Assembly (NCBI GenBank): GCA_030154025.1
Contig: JASKKT010000024.1
Span: 1 to 34,016, forward strand
Reading direction: 5' to 3'
Source of the DNA: Methanolobus sp.
GTDB lineage: Archaea > Halobacteriota > Methanosarcinia > Methanosarcinales > Methanosarcinaceae
DNA length: 34,016 bases
The notes under the pieces are model-generated. The model saw only the letters and a list, made by a program, of their open reading frames with translations, was not told the origin of the DNA and made no database searches. A program made the translations under genes and the position numbers. Below, one piece after another: positions 20,841 to 34,016 of the stretch (positions are counted from its first letter, which is position 1; each line of letters starts with the position of its first letter).

Positions 20841-20975
20841 TTGTTTTTTTCGATATAATATATGGGATCAAAACATCACATCAAAATAGAAAGAAGCGGG
20901 CATTGATAAAATGAAGGCAGCTAGGTGAGAGAGCATGCCGGATGAATGATTATGGAGGAAATTAAAAGAGAAGAA

Positions 20976-21212
20976 TCACTGGGTGCATTCCTGCACCATG
21001 ATCTTTGAGGCCATGCCCTTACCAAGAGCATAGTTGCAGCCGTTAAGATCCACAATAAGGGCACCCATATTATCTTTCTTGACCTTGAGGAATGAATTCT
21101 CTATAAACCCCATGGATTTAAGTCGATTCACAAGGGAACGACCTGCATTGATCGATATTATCTTACTGACCTTGCCTTCAGGCATCATTGCCAGCGGCAT
21201 GATTGGAGCCAT
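20976..21212 (-). CDS. feoA: FeoA-domain protein
   Basis: 78 residues, the size of stand-alone FeoA, an SH3-like protein that works with the FeoB ferrous-iron transporter in the cytoplasm. Family marks are PEGKVSKIISINAGRSLVNRL (N-terminal strand and helix), Leu-Lys-Ser-Met-Gly-Phe, and the C-terminal ALGKGMASKIMVQ. FeoB is not in the window. GAGAGGT lies five bases before the ATG. A DtxR-like palindrome lies 42-63 bases upstream of the start, which fits iron- or manganese-dependent control. Confidence 0.9.
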   Translation of the reverse strand: MAPIMPLAMMPEGKVSKIISINAGRSLVNRLKSMGFIENSFLKVKKDNMGALIVDLNGCNYALGKGMASKIMVQECTQ

Positions 21213-21253
21213 ATTCTACCTCTCTTAGTCCTTGATGTCTGTTTTGTCAAGTT

Positions 21254-21275
21254 GGTAAGCCTCAGTAGGCATACC
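21254..21275. promoter_or_regulatory. Candidate DtxR-family metal-regulator operator
   Basis: Half-sites GGTAAGCCT (21254-21262) and AGGCATACC (21267-21275) are inverted repeats matching at 8 of 9 positions around a 4-base centre. With the flanking TAA, the minus strand begins TTAGGTATGCCTA, which resembles the known DtxR/IdeR operator half TTAGGTTAGCCTA. It lies between feoA and its TATA box. Confidence 0.5.
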
Positions 21276-21287
21276 TAATATTAATCG

Positions 21288-21304
21288 ACACTACGATATA
21301 GTGT
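21288..21304. repeat. Perfect 6-bp inverted repeat in the feoA-U32 control region
   Basis: ACACTA (21288-21293) and TAGTGT (21299-21304) are perfect inverted repeats with a 5-base spacer. They sit between the shared TATA box and the DtxR-like palindrome, around the predicted feoA transcription start, so they may be a second operator. Confidence 0.4.
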
Positions 21305-21311
21305 TCAATGG

Positions 21312-21320
21312 TATATATAA
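21312..21320. promoter_or_regulatory. TATA box usable in both directions (feoA / U32)
   Basis: TATATATAA on the plus strand is TTATATATA on the minus strand. Plus-strand use predicts a start near 21343, just before the leader ORF at 21350; minus-strand use predicts one near 21288 for feoA. Confidence 0.45.
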
Positions 21321-21339
21321 GTTGTCTGCGGCTAAGATA

Positions 21340-21402
21340 ACTTGACAAGATGACAAATCCACTTGAGCAGATGACAAATCCACTTGAGCAGATGACAAAT
21401 GA
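21340..21402 (+). repeat. Three tandem 21-bp repeats
   Basis: Copies at 21340-21360, 21361-21381 and 21382-21402 share the unit ACTTGAGCAGATGACAAATC plus one base; the first copy differs at three positions near its left part and the third at its last two. Because 21 is a multiple of three, the array keeps a reading frame through the leader ORF. Confidence 0.9.
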
Positions 21403-21424
21403 TTTAAGCCATGCCCCCGCTTAA
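21350..21424 (+). CDS. 24-residue leader ORF made of a heptapeptide repeat
   Basis: ATG at 21350 opens a frame reading MTNPLEQMTNPLEQMTND and six further residues before TAA at 21422-21424. It lies six bases ahead of the U32 start codon and in the same frame. The predicted transcription start is only about seven bases before its ATG, so it would be the first ORF on the mRNA, nearly leaderless. The U32 gene itself has no ribosome-binding site (only CAAACC before its ATG), so coupling through this leader is plausible. No homologue is recognised; it could be regulatory rather than a functional peptide. Confidence 0.45.
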   Translation: MTNPLEQMTNPLEQMTNDLSHAPA

Positions 21425-21430
21425 CAAACC

Positions 21431-22654
21431 ATGCCTGAGACCAATGGAGAAGTAAGCACCCCGGAACTTGTAATGGGAGTCCGTAACCCGGCATCCCTTG
21501 GAGCCTGCAAGGAACATGCCGATGCAGTCTATTTTTCCCTGGACAGGTTCAGTCTCAGATCAAGAGCAAGGGAGATCACACCAGAAAACCTTGCAGGTTT
21601 TGTGGAACAGGTACATGAGTGTGGCCTGAAGGGTTACCTTGCGGTCAATTCCGTCATTTATCCCCGGGACCTGCAGGAGCTTAACAAGGTGATGGAAGCT
21701 GCGGCATCTGCAGGTGTCGATGCTGTCATAGCCTGGGACCCCGCTGCCATTATGCAGGCGATACAGAACGATCTGGATCTGCACATCTCCACACAGGCGA
21801 ATGTATCCAGTCATCAGAGCGCAGAATTCTACAGATCCCTGGGAGCGAGCAGGGTCGTGCTTGCAAGAGAGTTGAGCCTGGAGCAGATAAAAGAGATCAG
21901 GGCTAATACGGACATGGAACTGGAGATCTTCGTTCACGGGGCCATGTGCCAGTCAATATCCGGCAGGTGCTACCTATCGGCACACCTGCTGGGCAGATCC
22001 GGGAACTGCGGGGAATGCAGTCAGCCCTGCAGATGGGAATGGTCACTGTATTCAGACAGGAATGAGAAAGTGAGCCTTGAAGGAAAGTACCTTCTCAGTG
22101 CAAAGGACCTCTGCATGATAGAACACATACCTGAACTGATCGAAGCTGGTCTCGATGCCTTCAAGGTGGAGGGACGGCTGCGTGATCCCGGATATACCTC
22201 CGTGGTCTCAAAGTGCTACAGGAAAGCCATTGATGCTTATACAAGCGGTACTTATACGCCCGAGGCTGCCGGTCTGCTGAAAAGGGAGATGGGACTGCAG
22301 TATAATCGTGGTTTTTCAACCGGTTTCTATTTTGGCGATCCCGGTTCGGAGGGATTGGCCCTGGACCAGGCCATGAATGCCTCCCCTGTAAAAAAGCAGG
22401 CAGTGGGTTTTGTGACAAATTTCTTCCCGAAGAGTAATGCCGCATCTATTAAACTCATGGAGGGAGGACTGGATCTGGGGGACACGATCATTATAGAAGG
22501 CGGTACGACATATATTGAGCAGAGCGTATCATCTCTGGTCATTCAAGGAGAGAGTGTCCTCTCTGCAGAAAAAGGCCAGGAGGCAGGACTTGCAGTTACA
22601 GGCAAAGTCCGCAAGAATGACCGTGTGTTCAGAATAGGCAGGATGCTTTCCTAA
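21431..22654 (+). CDS. Peptidase U32 family protein (tRNA/rRNA hydroxylation type)
   Basis: 407 residues. The U32 signature lies at ~165-201: ELEIFVHGAMCQSISGRCYL, then GRSGNCGECSQPCR, with Cys173, 180, 193, 196 and 200 available for an iron-sulfur cluster. The N-terminal ~160 residues fit the family's TIM-barrel (NSVIYPRDL, HISTQANVSSHQSAEFY). Characterised members (TrhP/RlhA) hydroxylate tRNA U34 or 23S rRNA C2501 rather than act as proteases, and the same may hold here. The C-terminal ~80 residues form a small beta domain, also usual. It is divergent from feoA and preceded by an in-frame leader ORF. Confidence 0.92.
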   Translation: MPETNGEVSTPELVMGVRNPASLGACKEHADAVYFSLDRFSLRSRAREITPENLAGFVEQVHECGLKGYLAVNSVIYPRDLQELNKVMEAAASAGVDAVIAWDPAAIMQAIQNDLDLHISTQANVSSHQSAEFYRSLGASRVVLARELSLEQIKEIRANTDMELEIFVHGAMCQSISGRCYLSAHLLGRSGNCGECSQPCRWEWSLYSDRNEKVSLEGKYLLSAKDLCMIEHIPELIEAGLDAFKVEGRLRDPGYTSVVSKCYRKAIDAYTSGTYTPEAAGLLKREMGLQYNRGFSTGFYFGDPGSEGLALDQAMNASPVKKQAVGFVTNFFPKSNAASIKLMEGGLDLGDTIIIEGGTTYIEQSVSSLVIQGESVLSAEKGQEAGLAVTGKVRKNDRVFRIGRMLS

Positions 22655-22783
22655 GCTCATCCGGTCATCTGCTTTCTTCCGGGATTTGATCAGCAGGAAA
22701 TTACAAATCGATTTAATTTAAAAAATATATAATATAAGAATGCACAATATGATTAGCAATTCATATCAGCGGAGGAAAGAACA

Positions 22784-23215
22784 TTGGACAAGTTCATGCA
22801 GTATGCTATTGAAGAAGCAAAGAAAGGGCTTGCAGAGGGAGGTATCCCCATCGGCTCTGTGCTTGTGAGGAACGGAGAGATCGTTGGCAGGGGTCACAAC
22901 ATGAGGGTGCAGGAGGGCGACCCCATGGCACACGCGGAGATATCCTGCCTGAAGAATGCAGGGAGGATTGGCAGTTACAAAGACACGGTCCTTTATTCCA
23001 CGTTGATGCCCTGTTACCTTTGTGCAGGTGCAGCCGTGCAGTTTGGCATCAGGAAGGTAATAGTGGGGGAATCGGCGAACTTCCAGGGAGCCCCCGAGTT
23101 TATGAGAGAGCATGGGATAGAAGTTGTAGATATGGATATTGCGGAATGTAAGGAGATGATGAGTAAATTCATACAAGACAGGCCGGATCTATGGTATGAG
23201 GACATCGGTAAGTAA
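22784..23215 (+). CDS. Cytosine deaminase of the fungal FCY1 type
   Basis: 143 residues. Zinc and proton-shuttle residues of the CDA fold are present: His50-Ala-Glu52 and Pro-Cys77-x-x-Cys80. Compared with yeast cytosine deaminase from memory, many short blocks match: GRGHNMR, HAEIS (HGEIS in yeast), GIRKVIVGE, and a C-terminus DRPDLWYEDIGK that parallels ERPQDWFEDIGE; the Trp and Asp there (137 and 140) are the cytosine-recognition positions in the yeast enzyme. The likely reaction is cytosine to uracil in pyrimidine salvage. The start is TTG at 22784 with GGAGG seven bases upstream. A TATA-like run lies near 22725-22735. Confidence 0.85.
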   Translation: MDKFMQYAIEEAKKGLAEGGIPIGSVLVRNGEIVGRGHNMRVQEGDPMAHAEISCLKNAGRIGSYKDTVLYSTLMPCYLCAGAAVQFGIRKVIVGESANFQGAPEFMREHGIEVVDMDIAECKEMMSKFIQDRPDLWYEDIGK

Positions 23216-23222
23216 AAAATTC

Positions 23223-24707
23223 TCATTCGCCTTTTTTGAAAGTGGCCCAGAATACGCTGCCTATACCGGCAGGACCATCCTCGATGCCTACCCTGCCCCC
23301 GTGGAGGTCAACCACTCTCCTGGCTATTGCAAGGCCAAGGCCGGCACCTTTAATCCCCTTCCTTTTTTGTGTAAGTCGTTTAAAGCGATCAAACACAAGC
23401 TCTTTATCAGTATCGGATATGCCGTCACCGAAGTCCTGGACATTCACTTTCCACTCAGTGCCGAGATCACCAATTTCGATAATAATGCTGCTATTAGCAG
23501 GTCCATATTTGATGGCATTGGAAATGTAATTGGTGAAAACCCCTTCCACCAGGGGATTCACTCTTGCCGGATAGTGGCCATTGAGCCTTATATCCATCGT
23601 TATGTTCTTTTCAGCCATCAGGGTCGTGAAACTGTCTGCTGCATCCCTTATTATGGGGCCAAGATCAAGGACCCTGAACTCAAGATTGTCAGTATCCTCG
23701 AGCCTTGCAAAGTGGGCGGTAGACTCGATCATATTAATGAGCCGTGAAATATTATCATCTATGATCCTGAGCTTGCGGATCTTGTCATTATTGTCCTCGG
23801 CATGTAAAAGCATGCCTGCAAACCCTTTAGCAATCCCTGCAGGGTTCATGAGGTCGTGCGCCATTATGTCGATGAAGAGGTCTTTCAGGTCATTAGAGTA
23901 CTTAAGGTTCTGAGCATATTGCTTCAATTGCTTTTCAGCTTCCTTCTTAAGTGTGATATCCTCGCCTGAGCTGAGAACACCCAGGGAGTTACCCTCCTTG
24001 TCTTGGATGGACTTGCTGCACCACGAAACTATTCGTTCTTCCCCATTCTTGGTCATCAGGGGACCTTCATAATATAATTCAGCCCCGTTCTCAAGACCCA
24101 TTGCTTTGATATAGTGTTGTCTGGCCTCATTTCCTGAGGGCTGCGGTACAAAGGTATTAAACCAGCTGCGCTCCATAATATCCGACTCCTCGCAGCCGAG
24201 TATGTCCATAGCCCTCCTGTTGACAAGAGTGACCCGCTGGTCCCGGTCAAGCACGAGCATCATGACCCCGGCAATATCCAGGTAGTTCTGTGCCTGGTCC
24301 CTTTCATAGATCACTTTGTCGTGCAATGACTTGATCCTTAGCAGGGATGTAACCCTCATCCTCAGTTCCAGCCTGTCCACCGGCTTGGTAAGAAAATCGT
24401 CTGCATGGCATTCAATACCTTTAAGGCGATCCTCTCTTGAGGAAAGCGCGGTCACCAGGACTACCGGGATGAAGTGGGTCTCAGAGGACTTCTTGATCTG
24501 CTCACATACCTTGTACCCGTTAAGCCCAGGCATCATCACATCCAGCAGAACAAGGTCCGGCCTTTCCTTCACAACCAGCTGCAGGGCTTCAGAACCGCAA
24601 TATGCGGGAATAATGTCATACTCGGCAGTAAGATAAGCCTGGAGCAGTTCTACATTCATTGGCTCATCGTCCACTATAAGTATCCGGGGTCTGGGAGATG
24701 GGGACAT
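23223..24707 (-). CDS. Response-regulator/PAS/histidine-kinase hybrid
   Basis: About 494 residues, cytoplasmic. Residues ~8-120 are a receiver domain (ILIVDDEP; phospho-acceptor Asp in LVLLDVMMPG; Thr in LVTALS; Lys in FLTKPV). A PAS domain follows (~145-265). The kinase has an H-box IMAHDLMNPAG (~285), N-box NYISNAIKYGP, and G boxes DFGDGISD and GAGLGLAIARR at the C-terminus. With a receiver first and no output domain, it is likely to relay phosphate to another protein. TTG at 24764 would add 19 residues but lies upstream of the predicted transcription start, so ATG 24707 is preferred. No partner regulator lies next to it. Confidence 0.9.
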   Translation of the reverse strand: MSPSPRPRILIVDDEPMNVELLQAYLTAEYDIIPAYCGSEALQLVVKERPDLVLLDVMMPGLNGYKVCEQIKKSSETHFIPVVLVTALSSREDRLKGIECHADDFLTKPVDRLELRMRVTSLLRIKSLHDKVIYERDQAQNYLDIAGVMMLVLDRDQRVTLVNRRAMDILGCEESDIMERSWFNTFVPQPSGNEARQHYIKAMGLENGAELYYEGPLMTKNGEERIVSWCSKSIQDKEGNSLGVLSSGEDITLKKEAEKQLKQYAQNLKYSNDLKDLFIDIMAHDLMNPAGIAKGFAGMLLHAEDNNDKIRKLRIIDDNISRLINMIESTAHFARLEDTDNLEFRVLDLGPIIRDAADSFTTLMAEKNITMDIRLNGHYPARVNPLVEGVFTNYISNAIKYGPANSSIIIEIGDLGTEWKVNVQDFGDGISDTDKELVFDRFKRLTQKRKGIKGAGLGLAIARRVVDLHGGRVGIEDGPAGIGSVFWATFKKGE

Positions 24708-24775
24708 CTCTTCTTTTTTTAAGGCGCCTTCCGTTCTAAAGAACACCCTGTCTCGTGAAATCAAACTGTATGGAA

Positions 24776-24782
24776 CTTTATA
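24776..24782 (-). promoter_or_regulatory. TATA box for the hybrid kinase gene
   Basis: TATAAAG on the minus strand predicts a start near 24752, between the possible TTG (24764) and the preferred ATG (24707). Confidence 0.4.
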
Positions 24783-25108
24783 GTAATTATAGATATCTCA
24801 AAAAATAAAGTCCTTTATTAAATTATGATAGAATATATAAAAAATGATGAGACAAGTTTTTCAACAGGAAGGACTTGAAGAGGGTGATACTGGCCGGGAG
24901 ATGCAAGCTCACTCATCATCATCACAATAAGCATATCGCAAAGCACAGGCACTTTTATATATCCAGGAGAGAATGCATTAATTCGGCCATGGTGTGGCAG
25001 CAATGTCGTACCTCTGTCTCCGGACAGAAGCCTTCTGAAGGCACGGCAAGAAGATCTAACGGAGTATGAGCGGACCCGGGGGTCCATGTTATTATTCGAA
25101 GAAACAGT
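24783..25108. other. Gene-free region with a structured leader for the C39-like gene
   Basis: A TATA box (TTTTATATAT, 24953-24962) would give a leader of about 120 bases. That leader holds TCTGTC/GACAGA (25013-25018 with 25023-25028), CAGAAGCCTTCTG (25025-25037), GCCTTCTGAAGGC (25030-25042) and GGACCC/GGGTCC (25072-25085). The first three overlap, so they cannot all fold at once. A 28-codon frame at 24844 has no supporting signals. Confidence 0.4.
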
Positions 25109-26245
25109 GTGTCATTGGTAGCGAAAGCTGTCTTTATCCTGTTGCTGGTGTCGTTCAATGTGGCATCAACAGACTATGCCAGCGTACCTGCCACATATAC
25201 GAATGACAGTGCAGGGGTGCATGGGGTCATCCTGCCTGTGCCTTACCATAACCAGGGGGATACAAGCTGGTGCCTCTACTATTGCCTTGCCATGATGGCA
25301 GATTATAACAACAGGCATATCGAGCCGTGGATGATAGCATCGCATTTCAGCTCCGGTAATAACGAAACTTTTTCAGGCCAATACAATCCCTTCGACCATT
25401 CGCTTGAGGATCACATGAAAGAGAACTATTCCATAGTTACCAGGAAAAGAGTATGGGGTAGCAGTCTCAGACCTGTGGATGCTGAAAGTCTTAACTCGGT
25501 GATAAAGAGTAATATTGACCGGGGTCAGCCTGTCCTCATGGCCTTCCAGTACAATACCCCGGAAGGCACAAAGAAGGGACATGCAGTTCTTGCAGTGGGT
25601 TATGACGAGAGCTTCATCTATATAAGCGACCCCAGCGGAGCCCTGACCGTGGATCTCTTTGGAAAGGATGGGAAATACATTGCCGTACCCATAAGCTGGG
25701 AAGAGTTCAATCAACAGCTGGCGGGAAATGTAAAACCCTCCAACATGGCATTCACCATAGAGGTACTTGATAGCGCACCAGCCAGTACGCCTGGAGGGTC
25801 GGTGTATCTGGCAGATTACAGTGATCACGGATACAGCTACCTCCGTTTTGTGAACAGGACGGACAGCATGGATATCGGCCTGCTGCGTCTTGACGGCAGC
25901 AGGAGAGGATACTATATTGCCCGTGCATCGGATGTGTCCAGTTACCGGGAACCTACTTTAAACGACAGCATGTGGGTCTTCTTTACTGTAGCTAACCCGT
26001 TTCCGGAAGAAAAGACTTATGTTGTTGTGAACGAGCTGATCCGGAAGGATACAGGGGACAGCATGAATACCTTCCGCTACCTTCTGGAAATGGAGGCCCC
26101 TGCATATGGCATGACTTCAAAGGGAGTGAACTATTCTAACCAGCTCGGCTCTGTCAGCCCGGGAGCTTATTCTGTCGTGGTTACCCTTCTTGACAGTGAG
26201 ATGCAGGAGATCACCTCAACAGCCGTTGATATTAACATTTCCTGA
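25109..26245 (+). CDS. Exported C39-like (papain-fold) cysteine peptidase-like protein
   Basis: 378 residues. A hydrophobic N-terminus (VAKAVFILLLVSFNVAS) acts as signal peptide. Residues ~40-220 fit the C39-like/papain fold: VPYHNQGDTSWCLYYC (Gln49, Cys55), GHAVLAVGYD (His158) and YISDPSG (Asp174) give the catalytic triad. The C-terminal ~140 residues form a beta-rich domain ending in a DSEMQEITSTAVDINIS strand, probably for binding outside the cell. The start is GTG at 25109; an in-frame stop at 25067 and the lack of an upstream ATG support it, although no ribosome-binding site is evident. The substrate is unknown; a cell-surface or cell-wall protein is possible. Confidence 0.78.
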   Translation: MSLVAKAVFILLLVSFNVASTDYASVPATYTNDSAGVHGVILPVPYHNQGDTSWCLYYCLAMMADYNNRHIEPWMIASHFSSGNNETFSGQYNPFDHSLEDHMKENYSIVTRKRVWGSSLRPVDAESLNSVIKSNIDRGQPVLMAFQYNTPEGTKKGHAVLAVGYDESFIYISDPSGALTVDLFGKDGKYIAVPISWEEFNQQLAGNVKPSNMAFTIEVLDSAPASTPGGSVYLADYSDHGYSYLRFVNRTDSMDIGLLRLDGSRRGYYIARASDVSSYREPTLNDSMWVFFTVANPFPEEKTYVVVNELIRKDTGDSMNTFRYLLEMEAPAYGMTSKGVNYSNQLGSVSPGAYSVVVTLLDSEMQEITSTAVDINIS

Positions 26246-26300
26246 AAGAACTTCCGATTTTGAAGGTGTCAAGCCGAGTGAGACGGACTGCCCTACACGC

Positions 26301-26320
26301 TTATGGGAGCCCACCCATAA
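26301..26320. terminator. Hairpin after the C39-like gene
   Basis: TTATGGG (26301-26307) pairs with CCCATAA (26314-26320) around a 6-base loop. It lies 55 bases after the stop and is followed by a T-rich stretch, so it may end the upstream transcript. Confidence 0.35.
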
Positions 26321-26385
26321 CCTTTAATCTTCAAAGCTGATATGCAGCCGGAAAGCAACAGAATCACGCCGAACTGGATATTATG

Positions 26386-26675
26386 ATGGGTTACATCGCA
26401 GGTACACTTGCCACCATAGCTTTTGCTCCTCAGCTCATCAAAGCCCTTAAGACCAAATCCACAAAGGAGATCTCCTTAATAAATCCACAAAGGAGATCTC
26501 CTTAATGATGCTGTTATGTTCTACAACAGGCATGACTTTCTGGCTGGTCCACGGACTCGTCATTAATGATTACGCGCTGATAGTTGCAAACAGCATTTCA
26601 GTTGCGCTGGCATCTGCTTTGCTTTTCTATAAGATCAAAAAGGACTACTTCAGAAGGCAAACAGAGATAATATGA
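26386..26675 (+). pseudogene. SemiSWEET (PQ-loop) transporter gene broken by a 26-bp tandem duplication
   Basis: Reading from ATG 26386 (or 26383) gives MGYIAGTLATIAFAPQLIKA, with the PQ-loop Ala-Pro-Gln-Leu, then KTKSTKEISL, after which the frame runs into a stop. Removing one copy of the repeat at 26455-26506 restores an 87-residue protein with three helices (WLVHGLVINDYALIVANSIS, then a final ALASALLFYKIKKDYF), ending at TGA 26673-26675. That is the normal length of a SemiSWEET half-transporter, which dimerises to move sugars or similar small solutes across the membrane. The present form would make only ~37 residues. The lesion looks recent because both copies are identical and the rest of the frame is intact. 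Confidence 0.85.
26455..26506 (+). repeat. Perfect 26-bp tandem duplication containing a palindrome
   Basis: Copies 26455-26480 and 26481-26506 are identical. Each contains the perfect 14-base palindrome AAGGAGATCTCCTT. A 26-base insertion is not a multiple of three and shifts the reading frame of the SemiSWEET gene. Confidence 0.97.
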
Positions 26676-26747
26676 TAATTTAGGAGTAAAGGAAACAATT
26701 TCCGGGGAACTCCCGGCTGCAACTTAGTATATGGCGGAGGGAATAAT

Positions 26748-26978
26748 TTAACTGTCATTCCCTATCGCGTCTACCGGGCAGCTTGCCATAGCCTCATCAC
26801 TGGCAGTTTTCTCATCATAATTTTCCGGTTGCTTGTGAACATAGGCATGTGTTCCGTCATCGGTCATTTTGAAATTGGAAGGCGATGTATCAACACACAC
26901 TTCGCATGCAATGCATTCTTCATCCACATAATACGGACCCGGTATATTTTCAGGTACTTTAATACTCTTATCGGCCAT
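26748..26978 (-). CDS. Single-cluster [4Fe-4S] ferredoxin
   Basis: 76 residues, like the monocluster ferredoxins of Desulfovibrio or Pyrococcus. Cys22, Cys25 and Cys28 (ECIACEVC) with Cys67 in ASCPVDAI bind one [4Fe-4S] cluster; the second-cluster ligands are absent. YYVDEECIACEVCVDTSPSNF is the family's N-terminal block. It carries electrons in the cytoplasm, for example between hydrogenase- or CO-dehydrogenase-type enzymes and reductive pathways in methanogens. The frame extends upstream to 27083, but GGGGAG five to eight bases before ATG 26978 and the domain boundary fix this start. Confidence 0.93.
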   Translation of the reverse strand: MADKSIKVPENIPGPYYVDEECIACEVCVDTSPSNFKMTDDGTHAYVHKQPENYDEKTASDEAMASCPVDAIGNDS

Positions 26979-27251
26979 TATTCCACTCCCCAAGTAATTG
27001 TCATGGAATAGTACCATCCCTAAAAGATAAGTCCTTTTCGACAACAATGTTTTGCCCAAAATGCACAATGCAGAAGGAGGCATCTTGTAATCCGGTATGT
27101 CCGAAGCCTGTAGAGTAAAACCGGGGAAGTTGCACGAATATATTTAGCTTTTTGTCACACTTATCCGAAATAATGATACCAAAATTTGTAACTTATGAAT
27201 AAAAAGACTTATAACTTACAATCACCATACACCTATGGTAAAGGGGTATTA
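26979..27251. other. Gene-free stretch
   Basis: No gene or clear promoter motif apart from AT-rich runs near 27140-27220. The minus-strand extension of the ferredoxin frame over 26979-27083 does not look like coding sequence. Confidence 0.4.
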
Positions 27252-27331
27252 ATGCGAAGAGCATTAAAATATGTGCAATACTGATGGGTATATTTTCCAT
27301 CGGGTGCACGGATAGGGTGGCAACGATGTAA
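27252..27331 (+). pseudogene. Remnant of a lipoprotein gene (third copy)
   Basis: AGGGG six bases before ATG 27252 is a good ribosome-binding site. The frame reads MRRALKYVQY and stops at 27282. In the frame one base over, ATG 27284 continues MGIFSIGCTDRVATM to TAA 27329-27331. Joined, these give a basic start, a hydrophobic stretch and the lipobox Ser-Ile-Gly-Cys-Thr-Asp, matching the N-termini of the genes at 27504 and 27760. One missing base explains the break. Nothing of a mature domain remains. Confidence 0.6.
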
Positions 27332-27503
27332 ATGAAGACTACATGTGGGAGTAGAGGCAAATAAGGCAGTCATGTGAGATATCTTTGAACAGATCTGATT
27401 GCTCACAATTACTACTTTCACTAAACAGAAGCCTATCCAGTTCATCTGTGACAGGAGATCAGATGACAGGCGACATTACACATAATAAACCGGGGGTTGA
27501 TTT

Positions 27504-27685
27504 ATGCGAAGAGGTATAGTAATCTCACTCGCTCTCCTTTTGGCTGTGTTTTTCGCGATAGGCTGCACAGATACAGGGAGTGAAGGGAAGTAAACGATAC
27601 AGAGGTTGTACCTGTCATAGAAGACGAGGAATCAATTGATACTCAGGCAGTCAATGAGGACGATACAGCCAGTGAAGAAGGATAA
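27504..27685 (+). pseudogene. Frameshifted short copy of the 27760 lipoprotein
   Basis: ATG 27504 gives MRRGIVISLALLLAVFFAIG, then CTDTGSEGK and a stop at 27591. The alternative frame continues NDTEVVPVIEDEESIDTQAV to TAA 27683-27685. Together they parallel the start of the gene at 27760 (signal, lipobox Cys, acidic Asn-Asp-Thr...Val-Val-Pro linker), including a shared GGGGGTT...ATTT segment before the ATG. A single missing base around the GGG at 27585-27590 explains the shift. Even when repaired, the copy lacks the cupredoxin domain. Confidence 0.75.
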
Positions 27686-27759
27686 TTGATATAGAACAAT
27701 CTTTTTTCATCGTGAATCAGGGTAATAAGATCTCATATTAAATAAATGGGGGTTAATTT

Positions 27760-28374
27760 ATGCGAAAAGGAATAGTAATATCACTTGCTGTGCTACTGGT
27801 TGTGTTTTTCGCGATCGGCTGTACAGATACAGGAACTGACGATGGGACAAATGACACGGTTGTTGTACCTCCTACTGACAACGAAACAACGGATCAGCAG
27901 GAGCCTGTGACGGATGATCAGGCCCAGGTGGATCAGGACGTAGTCGATACCACTGAAGTGACTGTTAACGAGGATGGTTTCAGTCCGGAAACTATCAGGG
28001 TCATGACAGGAGACACTGTGACCTGGACAAATACAGGCCAGGAAAATGTCACGGTTACATCCGATGATGACTTCTTCGACTCAGGCATACTCGGTCCGGG
28101 AGAGACATTCACTTACACATTCGATGAAGCCGGAACCTTTGACTACAGTTCAGAAGAAGACTTCCTGATGTCAGGCACCGTGATCGTGGAGCCGGGGGAG
28201 GAAGGCACAATGACTGATAATCAGACAGTTACCACTGTTCCGACAGACAATGGAAGTAATATAACTGCTGAGGACAGGGGGTTTAACACCACTGCCGAAG
28301 GAGATATAATAGTAGAGAGCGAACAGCCAACTACTAATACAACCATTACATCGGACGAGAACGATACCCTCTGA
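27760..28374 (+). CDS. Lipoprotein with a cupredoxin-fold domain lacking copper ligands
   Basis: 204 residues. The signal ends in the lipobox AIGC with lipidated Cys21. Residues ~22-65 are an acidic linker, ~66-145 a cupredoxin (plastocyanin/amicyanin-like) domain, and ~146-204 a Thr/Asn/Glu-rich tail with sequons. The domain has the family phrases FSPETIRVMTGDTVTWTN, FDSGILGPGETFTYTFDEAG and SGTVIV. However, by alignment to amicyanin-type proteins the ligand His, Cys and His positions are Val97, Ser131 and Asp134; only Met137 is kept. It is therefore unlikely to bind copper in the usual way and may be a surface binding or structural protein. GGGGGTT precedes the ATG. Confidence 0.85.
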   Translation: MRKGIVISLAVLLVVFFAIGCTDTGTDDGTNDTVVVPPTDNETTDQQEPVTDDQAQVDQDVVDTTEVTVNEDGFSPETIRVMTGDTVTWTNTGQENVTVTSDDDFFDSGILGPGETFTYTFDEAGTFDYSSEEDFLMSGTVIVEPGEEGTMTDNQTVTTVPTDNGSNITAEDRGFNTTAEGDIIVESEQPTTNTTITSDENDTL

Positions 28375-28392
28375 ATCTGAAAAGTATAAAAG

Positions 28393-28418
28393 AGGAGGCT
28401 CTGATGCCTCCTACGATC
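28393..28418 (+). terminator. Hairpin and T-run after the cupredoxin-like gene
   Basis: AGGAGGC (28393-28399) pairs with GCCTCCT (28406-28412) around a 6-base loop, followed by ACGATCTTTTC. It lies 19 bases after the stop. Confidence 0.55.
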
Positions 28419-28501
28419 TTTTCTGACATCCTGCTTTAAGCAGATACAATCCATAAAAAGAGTTGTTTTTATATCTCGTTCTGTTTTTCTGTAGCTATAT
28501 C

Positions 28502-29693
28502 TCACCCGGAAGACCTTATTTTGGCTGCAGGCTCCCTTCCCAGACTGGCAATGTTGGCAAAGTCCTCGTCCGAGGCAGGGCCGTTTATCTCTATCGCGCC
28601 CACCACTTCTATCTTTGTTGGCTTGAGCATTTCCGATAGCTGCCTGACAGCACCTCCTCCCAAGCCGTAGGAACTGAGCGCTGCCCCTACCGGAGAGGCG
28701 GCTTGAGGATCTTAACAAGATGAGTGGCATAGACTGCAAGCGGACGCAGCTCTCCAAGGACCGTGGGAGTTCCAGGCACGATCGCCCTGGAGTCCACAAG
28801 TTGCCTGGTAATATCACCGATGCCGGAGTTGAGAAGGTTGAAGTAGCTTACCTGTATCCCTTCGGACATCAGTGTTTCAGCCATGGCCTTGACCATCTTT
28901 TCAGTGGCACCCCACATGCTTGCATGCACCAGTATGGCTTTCTCCCGGGTTTCCCCTGCAGTCCATATGCGATACATATCCAGTATCCTTTCAGGATTCC
29001 TGTATATAGGGCCATGGCTTGGGGCAATCATGCCGATATCCAGGCCGCTTATCCTTTCAAGGGCCTGCGCACCCTTTCTCTTGAATGGCATCATGATCTC
29101 CCCGAAGTACTTTTCAGCTACATGGATAAGGTTTTCTACTTCATCATCATAAAAACCGGCTGCAGTGTGTGCACCAAAGTAGTCGCATGGGAACAGTACC
29201 TTATTCTCCTCCACGTAGGTGAACATGGTTTCGGGCCAGTGCAGCCATGGGGCTTCTATGAAACGCAATGTCCTGTCACCAAGCTCCAGCGTATCGCCAT
29301 CTTTTACAATTGCCAGCCGTTGCTCCGGTATCTTGTAGAACACCTGTGCCATTCTGGCCCCTTTCCGGGTTGTTACGAGCTTTGCTTCGCTGGAGACATC
29401 CATCACTGCCTTTATGGCATTGGCATGATCTGGTTCTGCATGGTTCATTATTACATAATCCAGTACTTCCGTGTCAGTGAGGCTGTGCAGCTTGTCCAGG
29501 AGCTCCCCCTCGAATCCCGGGTTCACGCTGTCTACAAGCGCAGTCCCCTGCTTCCCTTTATAAGATAGGCATTATAGCTCGTGCCATCTGGCAGCGGAAT
29601 TAAAGCGTCGAACACGCGCCGGTTCCAGTCTTTTGAACCGACCCAGAAGATGCTATCGGATATTTCCGGTGTATAATACTCTATAATATTCAC
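28502..29693 (-). pseudogene. fprA: A-type flavodiiron protein (F420H2 oxidase/FprA-like), two frameshifts
   Basis: Three reading frames must be joined. From GTG 29693: [20 protein letters not shown] and onward to a stop at 29532. From ~29545 to 28687: [16 protein letters not shown], the metal motif HAEPDHA, WLHWPET, PCDYFGAH and PSHGPIYR (all iron ligands intact), then the flavodoxin start ILVHASMWGATEKM. From ~28686 to TGA 28502-28504: ALSSYGLGGGAVRQLSEMLK and the rest of the flavodoxin domain. Each break needs one extra base, and both fall at CCCC runs (29545-29548 and 28684-28687). Intact enzymes reduce O2 to water with F420H2. The middle part alone (28687-29526) would lack both ends. Confidence 0.85.
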
Positions 29694-29952
29694 CCCCTTA
29701 CTGCAAAACAGACAAGGTTATAGTGAGATATCATTTTGTAAGCAAAAATTAAAAGAGCTCATTAAATTAAGCAAAGGTATAATTAAATAAGATGGTTTGA
29801 TAGTATTGCATATAGGTCACGGCGCGGGGGAGCTTGATCTATATTATATCATAAACCATTATCTACGGATAGATGGGTATGAACGAGCAATTCCGGATAC
29901 ATAGGATGTTGCTCCTGTGTTATTGAAACAAACTTGAAAGAGGGGATTAACT
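29694..29952. other. Gap before the 48-residue gene
   Basis: 259 bases without a gene. It contains a GC-rich patch (CACGGCGCGGGGGAG, 29819-29833) in an AT-rich setting and a TATA-like ATATTATATC near 29841-29850. Confidence 0.3.
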
Positions 29953-30099
29953 ATGTGTTTTTGGGTTCGGTTCTGGGAAGATGAAAACAAGAAGGTGCTG
30001 AGAGAAGTACCAGTGCACGCACAAACAACAACAGAAGCTAAGGATATATTCCAGCATGATTTTCCTGGCGTAAGCCATTTCGAGCTAAGAATGTCTTAG
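29953..30099 (+). CDS. Small 48-residue protein of unknown function
   Basis: ATG 29953 with GAGGGG nine bases upstream; reads MCFWVRFWEDENKKVLREVP, then VHAQTTTEAKDIFQHDFPGV and ends in HFELRMS before TAG. It has a mixed strand-helix look (hydrophobic start, charged middle, predicted helix at TEAKDIFQ), no membrane helix and no signal peptide. I recognise no family. The good ribosome-binding site and protein-like composition support it as real; its neighbours (broken flavodiiron gene, GerW-like gene) give no clear hint. Confidence 0.55.
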   Translation: MCFWVRFWEDENKKVLREVPVHAQTTTEAKDIFQHDFPGVSHFELRMS

Positions 30100-30436
30100 A
30101 TAAAGACGGAGAACAATTGTGATCCCCCTTTTATTTTATACTTCCTGTTGTATCAATTTCCTGCCAATTAATATGTTGAATGTGGCTGTGTAATCGTTTG
30201 CCTTTATATTTCCTTTTGCATCCAAACGATATCAGAAAATGTTCCCTTCTTTTTCCTGCGTTCCTGAACCTTCCGCATTCCTGCGACACTCATGCTATCT
30301 GTACTTTATCCGGCAAATGTCGTTTTCTTGCAAGAGATACATCCATAATCAAATTGTACAATTCAGATTTACTTTTAACCTAGAAGCCACATATATCACG
30401 TATACACAAAAAGTGTAACGCAAAGGGGAGTATGAG
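30100..30436. other. Pyrimidine-rich gene-free region before gerW-like gene
   Basis: 337 bases with no gene. It contains an 8-base inverted repeat ATCGTTTG (30193-30200) / CAAACGAT (30223-30230) around a 22-base spacer, a TTTTATTTTATA T-rich run at 30129-30140 that could end the 48-residue gene, and a TATA-like ATATATC (30391-30397) placed to start transcription near 30420. Confidence 0.4.
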
Positions 30437-30880
30437 ATGGGATTAGAAGACCTCATGAAAGTGATCACCAAAGAAACTGAAAGTATCGTAGACACGAAAA
30501 CACTTATAGGTGACCCAGTTACCTCCGCCGGGAAAACCGTGATGCCTATTATCAGAGTTTCTGCCGGTTTCGGAAGTGCCGGAGGGGAACGTGACGGGCA
30601 GGCAGGCCAGATGGGATTCGCAGCCGGAGGCTACGCGGGAGTTAACATGGAACCTATTGGCTTTGTTGTCATATCCAAGGACGATGTCCGCCTGCTGACA
30701 GTATCCGGAAGACACACCTTCAGCCGGATAGTCGACATGGTGCCTGAAGTCGTGAGCAGGGTAAAGGAAGGCACTGAGGTATCCGAAAGAATGTCCGAGG
30801 GCGAGAGAGCAGGCAGAAGTGAACGGTCCGAAGGAAGAAGAGAGGGTTTTGACGAAAGCCACCAGGAGTTCAGTAGCTGA
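30437..30880 (+). CDS. GerW/YtfJ-family protein
   Basis: 147 residues, matching the GerW (sporulation protein YtfJ) family, which is also found in non-spore-forming archaea, where its role is unknown. Family marks: EDLMKVITKETESIVDTKTL at the N-terminus, the GDPVTSAGKTVMPIIRVSAG strand, a Gly-rich loop (FGSAGGERDGQAGQMGFAAG) and the GFVVISKDDVRLLTV strand (~75-90). The last ~40 residues are Glu/Arg/Ser-rich and probably disordered. GGGGAG lies six bases before the ATG. It is a soluble, probably cytoplasmic protein. Confidence 0.88.
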   Translation: MGLEDLMKVITKETESIVDTKTLIGDPVTSAGKTVMPIIRVSAGFGSAGGERDGQAGQMGFAAGGYAGVNMEPIGFVVISKDDVRLLTVSGRHTFSRIVDMVPEVVSRVKEGTEVSERMSEGERAGRSERSEGRREGFDESHQEFSS

Positions 30881-31194
30881 TCCATACCTGAAGGCGGAGC
30901 AGGCGGCGGCAGCCAGGCCACGGCTGGCAGGGCCGGAGCCGAGAGCAGCCGGTCCAGAAGAAGGGGCTCTTCCCGGGAAGAAGAATGCTGATCCTGTGAT
31001 ACCTGTTGATATGGCCAGTTCTGCTACTGGTCCATACAAATATCAGCATCTTTCAACAGGTCTCACACAATATACAGAGAACACTTCATGCAACTTTAAC
31101 ACTTTAGTCACTTCACTACTTCAGTGCATGCACCGGGAGGAGGAAGCATAAATTGCCTGACACTTTTGATATGTTTGTATTCTGAGCCGTGGTT
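30881..31194. other. GC-rich gap after the GerW-like gene
   Basis: 314 bases. The first ~110 are GC-rich and remain open in two frames (Ala/Pro/Arg-rich if translated), but no start signal supports a gene there. The end is ordinary. No terminator is obvious. Confidence 0.3.
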
Positions 31195-32214
31195 ATGGCC
31201 CGTTTCTTTTTACCGCTTGCTATTCCGCGGTATCCTCTTCCAGGTGTAGTGGCAGCCCTGATCCTGGATGGAGTTGATCAGACTATATTCCAGCTATTTA
31301 CCAGCCTGCCTCTCGAAGGGTACCAGAGTTATGACAAGGCACTTGATATCTACTATCTGACCATCACATATCTTTCAACGATGCGCAACTGGACCAACGG
31401 CTATGCTTTCGGGGTGAGCCATTTCCTTTTTTACTACCGTCTCGTGGGAGTGGTGGCCTTCGAACTAACGCAGGTACGGGCATTGCTGCTTGTTTTTCCC
31501 AACACTTTTGAGTATTTCTTCATATTTTACGAAGCCGTACGCCTTAAGTGGGATCCGGCATCCCTGACACGGAGACAGGTAATTGTTGCCACAGCCCTTA
31601 TATGGGTAGTCATCAAGCTGCCCCAGGAATACTGGATACACGTAGCGCAACTGGACACTACCGACCTGATAAGGGCATACCCGCCAGCCGCACTCATACT
31701 TGCTGTCTGGGTAGCGCTCCTGGTTGTGATCGCACTCCAGATCATCAGAGGTTTCCCTCCTGCGAAAGACGGGTTTGCTATAGCTGCCGAGGCCGTTCCT
31801 GCAAATCCCCGTCTGAAAGGACCCGGGACCCCGCAGGAAAGTTTCGTTAACAGCGCCATGCGGGAAAAGATCGTATTTGTATCCCTTCTGGGCATCATCT
31901 TTGCAAATATGCTGCCTGGTGTAAGGGTCACCAGTCTCCAGATAGCCGTAGCCACAGCATTCATTATAATTGTAAATACCGCGCTTAGCCAGTGGCTGGC
32001 GCGGAGTGGGACTCACTGGAAATCCATCATATGGGAATTCATGTTCATGACATTTGCTAATTTCCTGACGGTGCTGGCCTATTTCTTCCTGCTGAGCAGG
32101 TATGAGGGCTCTCTCAATCTTGTCAACACACTTTTCTTCATACTGCTGCTGACACTTAATGTGACCCTCTATGACCGGTACCGGCAGGTGTACAGAGAGA
32201 GGCATCGGGCATGA
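31195..32214 (+). CDS. Polytopic membrane protein of unknown function
   Basis: About 339 residues. I recognise no family. Hydrophobic segments suggest seven or more membrane helices, near residues 8-30, 75-95, 100-118, 130-150, 165-185, 230-250, 255-275, 290-305 and 310-330. A cytoplasmic-looking loop (~187-225) is rich in Pro, Ala and Lys. Notable motifs are NWTNGYAFGVSHFLFYYR near residue 68 and RYEGSLNLVNTLFF near the end; the C-terminus is basic (RYRQVYRERHRA). GTG 31189 is an alternative start; neither start has a good ribosome-binding site. Codon use appears normal and the frame is intact. Confidence 0.75.
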   Translation: MARFFLPLAIPRYPLPGVVAALILDGVDQTIFQLFTSLPLEGYQSYDKALDIYYLTITYLSTMRNWTNGYAFGVSHFLFYYRLVGVVAFELTQVRALLLVFPNTFEYFFIFYEAVRLKWDPASLTRRQVIVATALIWVVIKLPQEYWIHVAQLDTTDLIRAYPPAALILAVWVALLVVIALQIIRGFPPAKDGFAIAAEAVPANPRLKGPGTPQESFVNSAMREKIVFVSLLGIIFANMLPGVRVTSLQIAVATAFIIIVNTALSQWLARSGTHWKSIIWEFMFMTFANFLTVLAYFFLLSRYEGSLNLVNTLFFILLLTLNVTLYDRYRQVYRERHRA

Positions 32215-32290
32215 CTCTTGCAGTTTTGGGATAATATCGTTATCAAGAGGAATGAATAGAGATAAATAGCAGTGTACTTAAACCTGTTAA

Positions 32291-32445
32291 GGGGAAGTGG
32301 ACGGGCTCACAGGTGGGCAGACAGCCATCGCTGGATGCGCAGTCATATCATTCAGGCAACTCTGGATACTTGAGAACAGTTGTCTCGTAGCCCACGATAA
32401 GGACACGTACGAACTGACAACCATCGCAGGCTGATCGCTGACAAA
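32291..32445 (+). pseudogene. Detached winged-helix part of the FilR1-like regulator
   Basis: In the frame starting at 32291 (no start codon), the sequence ends RQLWILENSCLVAHDKDTYE plus LTTIAG before TGA 32432. This fits the end of the winged-helix domain and the link that precedes the FilR1 middle domain in methanogen regulators. Adding one base near 32430 would join it to LIADKM and the ORF starting at ATG 32446. Further upstream (32215-32290) the expected first helices cannot be recognised. Confidence 0.6.
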
Positions 32446-33006
32446 ATGATACCTCTGTTAGGCACTATTAAAGTGCTGGATACTGATATCGATCACTGGG
32501 GCAGGCATAATCTCTACTTTATCCCTCCACATCTGATGAAACGACTGCAGGAACTTGGGGAATGCAGTGTGGTTGTGCCTTCATTGCAGGAGATGCATGA
32601 GTTTAACAGGGAGGTGCACAACAGGTCACTGGAGTCGGGGTCCTTTTTTGAATTATCCTCATCCTTCAAGTCAGACTTCAGGATGCTGTTTTCAGATCTG
32701 GCACAAAGGGGTGTCAGGATGTCATTCATTGTCTCCCCGGAGCTCATGAATCATCTTAATATAGAACGTTATGAAGAGTTCAAGCAATATCTGGAAACGG
32801 GTGGAGTTGAATTCTACCTGTACCCTCAAAAAATGCCTTTTATATCTTTTGTCCGGAACGATTTCTGTCTCTTGTTCGAAATGCTGACAACAGAGGGAAC
32901 CTATGATAATACGCAACTTGTCTGCGGTGACCCGTTTGCTCTTAAATGGGGAAAGGAGCTGTTCGAGTACTACAGTCAGAACTCCACACTGATAAGCGGG
33001 ATATGA
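32446..33006 (+). CDS. FilR1-type (DUF1724) methanogen regulator lacking its DNA-binding domain
   Basis: 186 residues that match the middle and C-terminal domains of FilR1-type regulators of methanogens: PLLGTIKVLDTDIDHWGRHN at the start, IPPHLMKRLQELGECSVV, then VCGDPFALKWGKELFEYY at the end. Full-length members are ~260 residues with an N-terminal winged helix; here that part lies upstream in another frame (see 32291-32445). The ORF's ATG corresponds to an internal Met of the full protein (ADKM-I-P-L-L). As it stands the product cannot bind DNA; it may be a decayed gene, a ligand-binding remnant, or intact if a base is missing from the sequence. Confidence 0.8.
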   Translation: MIPLLGTIKVLDTDIDHWGRHNLYFIPPHLMKRLQELGECSVVVPSLQEMHEFNREVHNRSLESGSFFELSSSFKSDFRMLFSDLAQRGVRMSFIVSPELMNHLNIERYEEFKQYLETGGVEFYLYPQKMPFISFVRNDFCLLFEMLTTEGTYDNTQLVCGDPFALKWGKELFEYYSQNSTLISGI

Positions 33007-33179
33007 TCCCAACTGTATCTGTAAGGCATGACCAGATCAATAATTGTGATCCGCTGACGGAATCCGCTGATGGGATCTCCTGTCGGTCGCAATTTGTAAT
33101 AGTCCATTTTTTAAGATAATTAAGATTATATATTATAGTGCCTATTTATTTTTGTACTTAAAAACGTCTGGGTGGTAGC

Positions 33180-33812
33180 TTGAAAAGATGGCTTAAGACC
33201 ACATACACCAAAGCTTTTTGCATTCTCTTGTTTACTCTGACAGTTATACTTCTGGCAGGTCTTGTATATTCCGAGGAATTCAGTGAGAGTGAACAGGCTA
33301 AGAACAAGCCAAAACTGAATGCTTATAAGGTTTCCGGCTCGCCTGTCATACTCGTAGACAATCCCTCCGCGCGGAATCCCACGTGGGAAGAGCTGATGGA
33401 GTTCCTGAAAGAAGATGATACCGATCGCATCCTGTATCAGCTCGATAGTTTCAATTGCATCGATTTTGCAGAAAGGCTGCATAATAATGCCGAGCGCAGG
33501 GGCTTCAGGGCTGCTTATGTCTCTGTCAGTTTTCATGACAGGCAGAAAGGACATGCTATAAATGCCTTTGAAACAGTCGATAAGGGTTTTGTCTTCATCG
33601 ACTGTACAGGAGCTGAGAACCCGCTGGGGGAACTGGATAGTAACGACAAGGTTGCTTACATATTGCCGGATCGGGAATATGGATCTGTATCAATATATTA
33701 TACTGACACTCCCGAGTATGAGTTCTACGAACTGAGAAAGGATAAGCGTTTAAAGGGTTTTTTTAAAAGTATCGGTACGGTCAAAGGTACAAGGATATTC
33801 TGGGAAATGTGA
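33180..33812 (+). CDS. Exported transglutaminase-like protein
   Basis: 210 residues. A basic start and hydrophobic helix (residues ~11-30) make a signal peptide or membrane anchor. Residues ~60-150 fit a transglutaminase-like cysteine-hydrolase fold: FNCIDFAERLHNNAERRGFR with Cys93, GHAINAF with His125 and FIDCTG with Asp141 form a Cys-His-Asp triad. The family includes archaeal surface proteins of unknown substrate. The last 60 residues are charged. The start is TTG 33180; GGTGG lies six bases upstream. It is the second exported Cys-His-Asp protein in the window after the C39-like one. Confidence 0.75.
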   Translation: MKRWLKTTYTKAFCILLFTLTVILLAGLVYSEEFSESEQAKNKPKLNAYKVSGSPVILVDNPSARNPTWEELMEFLKEDDTDRILYQLDSFNCIDFAERLHNNAERRGFRAAYVSVSFHDRQKGHAINAFETVDKGFVFIDCTGAENPLGELDSNDKVAYILPDREYGSVSIYYTDTPEYEFYELRKDKRLKGFFKSIGTVKGTRIFWEM

Positions 33813-34016
33813 TTTTTGAGATAATATCTCTTCAGATAAGGGTACATATGAAGTTACTCCACTCCAACCTTTATGCTTTTTTTATATTCATATGCGATAG
33901 CATATAATAACACTCTTATTTGGCTCTGTAGAAATCCTCATTTTGACAACAAAAATAATCTTGACATACCTGTCAAGGTTATGCACTAATAGTTTGAATT
34001 TAACTTCCTTTAGTTG
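33813..34016. other. Right-edge gap with inverted repeats, possible insertion-sequence end
   Basis: No gene. Inverted repeats: ATATGC/GCATAT (33890-33905) and CTTGACA/TGTCAAG with a 4-base spacer (33960-33977). GGCTCTGTAGAAATCC at 33922-33937 resembles the outer end of some archaeal insertion sequences, but no transposase is within the window. Confidence 0.25.

Follow-up and report, generated by a model that had tools for sequence, protein, structure and literature searches.

Features of the SemiSWEET locus

The window, i.e., the whole 34,016-nt stretch of Methanolobus sp. DNA that was analysed, contains a SemiSWEET transporter gene interrupted by a tandem duplication. The features of the locus and of two broken genes in its neighbourhood are as follows.

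26383..26675, + strand: SemiSWEET gene, frame-shifted, a pseudogene in the best reading (orthologue DNA/protein alignment; Pfam PQ-loop and MtN3_slv on both pieces)
26386..26505, + strand: ORF1, 39 aa; helix 1, loop and an 8-residue foreign tail, INPQRRSP
26445..26450, + strand: CCTTAA, possible priming homology, repeated at 26474-26479 and 26500-26505
26455..26480, + strand: copy 1 of the 26-bp tandem duplication (sequence comparison)
26464..26477, no strand assigned: perfect 14-nt palindrome AAGGAGATCTCCTT in copy 1, 5' arm of a predicted RNA hairpin
26481..26506, + strand: copy 2 of the duplication, sharing the frame of the C-terminal part
26490..26503, no strand assigned: the same palindrome AAGGAGATCTCCTT in copy 2, 3' arm of the predicted RNA hairpin
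26490..26495, + strand: AAGGAG, putative Shine-Dalgarno-like motif 9 nt before the ORF2 ATG
26505..26675, + strand: ORF2, 56 aa; helices 2 and 3; its ATG overlaps the ORF1 stop as TAATG
28505-29684, - strand: FprA-like pseudogene, with two one-base deletions (frameshifts) and the start codon lost
32356-33006, + strand: FilR1-like regulator, front part lost, with an 871-bp deletion relative to the nearest relative (G002) and a one-base deletion

The two 26-nt copies are adjacent and identical at 26 of 26 positions, and a chance origin of the repeat is excluded (probability of 26 matches at a fixed offset about 2.5e-16 per site); the unit has no other occurrence in the window genome. The original prediction had described an exact 26-bp duplication with a 14-base perfect palindrome in each copy, and both are present. 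The palindrome in itself is unremarkable, 59 perfect 14-nt palindromes being observed in 694,375 bases of the window genome against about 43 expected; the after-the-fact probability of one falling inside the 26-bp unit is about 0.001 (13 x 59/694,375). Between the two palindromes, a hairpin with a 14-bp stem and a 12-nt loop is predicted (-23 kcal/mol, z -5.3), and its stability was reached by none of 200 shuffled sequences.

Since 26 is not a multiple of three, the frame is shifted: the frame opened by the ATG at 26383 or 26386 stops at TAA 26503-26505, copy 2 stays open in another frame as far as TGA 26673-26675, and a single continuous SemiSWEET frame is absent from the window genome. When one copy is left out, an open frame extends to 26672, with 88 residues from 26383 and 87 from 26386. 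The gene had been predicted to be switched off and to regain 87 residues upon deletion of one copy; as one frame it is indeed off, ending after 39 residues when read from 26386, and the deletion does restore 87 residues from this codon, but the conserved start is the ATG at 26383, which gives 88.

The predicted SemiSWEET identity is supported by profile and structure searches. The intact chain of the nearest orthologue (L002) scores 100.8 bits against NCBIfam NF037968 SemiSWEET_2 (cut-off 80), and among the solved SemiSWEET chains that it also matches the best is PDB 9kax (E 1.1e-18); the window gene, read with one copy, matches PQ-loop with 41.2 bits (cut-off 22) and MtN3_slv with 37.7 (cut-off 23.7). 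The predicted model of orthologue L013 (pLDDT 89) contains helices at residues 2-24, 32-51 and 55-79, a three-helix fold with PQ in helix 1 and the conserved Trp and Asn; P16, Q17, W45 and N61 are invariant in all eight aligned sequences, and all are present in the window pieces. A role of the conserved Trp and Asn in SemiSWEETs is described in PMC5972207. A literature search brought up no report of a SemiSWEET with a shifted frame in a methanogen. Searches with PF03083 and PF04193 returned this gene as the sole match in the window genome, and a redundant second SemiSWEET was rejected on this ground.

Occurrence in relatives and age of the duplication

Matches to the query protein were found in 10 of the 27 genomes of the genus, and these comprise the window genome (two pieces), a remnant in G013 and eight intact single-copy genes; the TAG flagged in one of the latter (G008) is the terminal stop. 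The remaining 17 genomes, one of them just 70% complete, gave no match to the query. The profile PF03083 found nine of the 27 and missed G013, where the independent remnant (L011, G013:C2:38351-38542) contains four stop codons. Across the family, 37 of 111 genomes matched; beyond G000 and G013, stops were flagged in G084, G095, G096 and G008, that of G095 being terminal as well. Intact single-copy orthologues, for which a search had been suggested, thus exist in eight other genomes of the genus, including the nearest relative, and at two Methanosarcina loci. An exact tandem run longer than 10 nt, with periods of 10-79, was found at none of 22 orthologue loci, which are best matches only and a subset of the matching genomes. 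As far as these sequences indicate, the duplication is lineage-specific.

The nearest relative, G002, has its intact single-copy gene at the same place, between a C39-peptidase gene and a ferredoxin gene, in a stretch aligning with window positions 20960 to 33891, for the most part at 87-91% DNA identity; the same order is found at lower identity in G006, G009, G012 and G018. The window therefore holds a disabled frame where intact orthologues stand in conserved gene order, as is characteristic of pseudogenes.

Comparison of the SemiSWEET gene of the window with that of G002 over 78 codons gave a dS of 0.22, a dN of 0.036 and a dN/dS of 0.16, a ratio dominated by the time before the duplication. 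Copies as old as the split from G002 should differ from each other at about 5.7 positions (52 sites x 0.11); no difference was observed, so the duplication is younger than this split and, as a rough bound, less than half its age. Two bases of the palindrome differ from G002, and both differences are shared by both window copies, so they most likely predate the duplication. The original prediction of a recent event is thus borne out relative to the nearest-species split.

Decay of the gene and of its neighbourhood

Three amino-acid changes in SemiSWEET were polarised to the window branch (I2M, T10A and D29E) and none to the G002 branch, with two unpolarised, although these numbers are small; I2 and T10 are invariant in the eight-sequence alignment and identical in 10 intact orthologues, and both are changed in the window. 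This pattern is suggestive of relaxed selection on the window gene.

Two further broken genes, FprA-like and FilR1-like, lie within 7 kb of SemiSWEET. In the FprA-like gene, 17 polarised amino-acid changes fall on the window branch against two on the other, whereas the intact controls show window:G002 changes of 4:6 (U32 peptidase), 2:5 (kinase), 5:6 (C39 peptidase), 5:4 (cupredoxin) and 13:16 (the gene at 31189); relaxed selection on the FprA-like gene is clearly indicated by these counts. The FprA-like product combines an ODP metallo-beta-lactamase fold with a flavodoxin domain, the nearest NCBIfam family being flavorubredoxin, below the cut-off; a distant intact paralogue (37% identity) is located on contig 75 of the window genome. 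Among the G002 frames of at least 120 aa with an orthologue in the sampled window-genome DNA, 4 of 49 were flagged as broken, three of them in the window; one flagged frame (31153-32205) has a stop near the front end only, with an intact frame from 31189. The YtfJ-like gene, 274 aa long in G002 (L044:13455-14279), has a shorter counterpart at 30437-30940 in the window, which lacks 270 bp. With its broken FprA-like and FilR1-like genes, the neighbourhood is stronger evidence of real decay than the changes in SemiSWEET itself.

Possible origin of the duplication

Replication slippage or template switching at the site is the probable source of the duplication; the nascent strand may have been misplaced at the CCTTAA repeats flanking the duplication, or at the palindrome, and it is possible that the palindrome promoted the slippage. 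The CCTTAA repeats are spaced 29 and 26 apart, and plain microhomology was rejected, since slipping cleanly from the first to the second would have duplicated 29 bases, not 26; no base is shared between the ends of the unit and the flanks, and a clean slip would not leave such a junction. The G002 counterpart of the palindrome contains one mismatched pair, AAGGACATATCCTT; quasi-palindrome correction was also rejected, because the window has other bases on both sides of this pair, more than one templated correction would produce. Where the window departs from G002 at or in the unit, all three differences are transversions, and the other 14 counted over the first 78 codons are transitions; an error-prone event read from such clustered mutations was rejected, as 6% of the 27-base stretches of the same alignment hold at least three transversions and the SemiSWEET tail shows more of them than the unit does.

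Interpretation

The repeat and the shifted frame are observed, as are the orthologues with one copy, the conserved order of genes and the loss or decay of the gene elsewhere; the best explanation, with a probability of roughly 0.74, is that a genuine lineage-specific 26-bp duplication frame-shifted and inactivated the only SemiSWEET gene of this genome, an ordinary loss of a dispensable gene; the gene would have been lost recently, at a place where neighbouring genes also decay. We infer that SemiSWEET function is absent, and a counterpoint to inactivation is that both halves keep open frames and plausible starts. Perhaps ORF1 and ORF2 are translated by coupling and assemble into a functional two-piece SemiSWEET: the TAATG stop-start overlap created by the duplication would couple the 39- and 56-residue peptides, and a ribosome finishing ORF1 would open the 14-bp hairpin hiding the ORF2 start. 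ORF1 provides native residues 1-32 and ORF2 residues 33-88, with none missing; in the predicted L013 model, the break falls where the loop joining helices 1 and 2 ends, with L32 as the last native residue of ORF1 and M33, at the start of helix 2, as the first of ORF2, and ORF2 has no stop or polarised change. However, single-copy relatives already have the internal Met codons, which makes the second start a positional accident, of consequence only if selection acted on it; AAGGAG is buried in the stable predicted hairpin (-23 kcal/mol, z -5.3), the split form occurs in no relative and invariant residues are changed in the first piece, all of which makes such a two-piece transporter very improbable. 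If it were true, a membrane transporter gene would have been turned into a two-gene operon by one mutational step.

The on/off switch proposed in the original prediction, where gain or loss of one 26-bp copy would turn the transporter off and on, fares no better. The copies are identical and adjacent, the loss of one restores the frame and the array is able to form the predicted 14-bp stem, but no array is present at any of the 22 orthologue loci, the unit is found nowhere else in the window genome and the single copy in G002 is without the perfect palindrome; moreover, many relatives lack the gene or keep a decayed form of it, its neighbours in the window are decaying and otherwise invariant residues are changed in the window gene, so a reversible switch is highly unlikely. 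An assembly or sequencing error, with the second copy nonexistent in the organism, is also unlikely, though it deserves somewhat more weight: the draft assembly consists of 86 contigs, none of the 22 loci tested in relatives has the repeat, and with a k-mer of 27 an overlap left unmerged would measure 26 bp. Against this, assemblers tend to collapse repeats and seldom add copies, the 52-bp array is short enough for one short read and genuine gene decay is visible nearby. A repeat census of 694,375 bases of the window genome (41 stretches, window included) revealed exact tandem repeats with a period of at least 20 at just three places, i.e., the 26-bp repeat, one of 21 bp at 21348 and one of 24 bp where contig 26 ends (L073); a systematic assembly overlap of one repeat length was rejected, no other exact 26-bp tandem repeat being present in these bases. 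No systematic artefact was seen in the 694,375 bases, and a single error may still have occurred. The 21-bp repeat (21348-21400, + strand) lies upstream of the U32 peptidase gene and has 2.5 exact copies, one more than in G002; the 24-bp repeat (L073:1-110) was listed as two runs. In G002, no exact tandem repeat with a period of at least 20 was found in 219,658 bases.

Read as the loss of a dispensable gene, the locus matters little, being another small transporter gene lost in a methanogen; it is also a reminder that a frame-breaking repeat without evidence of variation is not a switch.

Comparison with known systems

The combined sequence of both pieces resembles the SemiSWEET transporters (NF037968; MtN3_slv/PQ-loop; PDB 9kax, 4rng, 4qnc, 5uhq and 4x5m), including the PQ motif, the W45 and N61 columns and the three-helix model of the orthologue, but the window frame is broken between helices 1 and 2. 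Phase-variable contingency loci switch by changes in repeat number, and the likeness to them consists in a frame-changing tandem repeat within a coding region; the window differs in that a single genome carries two copies of its 26-bp unit, and no sign of conservation or variation of the repeat was seen among relatives (0 of 22 loci). With pseudogenes formed by a short frame-shifting duplication, the locus shares intact single-copy relatives, a duplication whose length is not a multiple of three and recurrent loss in the family, and it differs from them in that both halves retain start codons and open frames.
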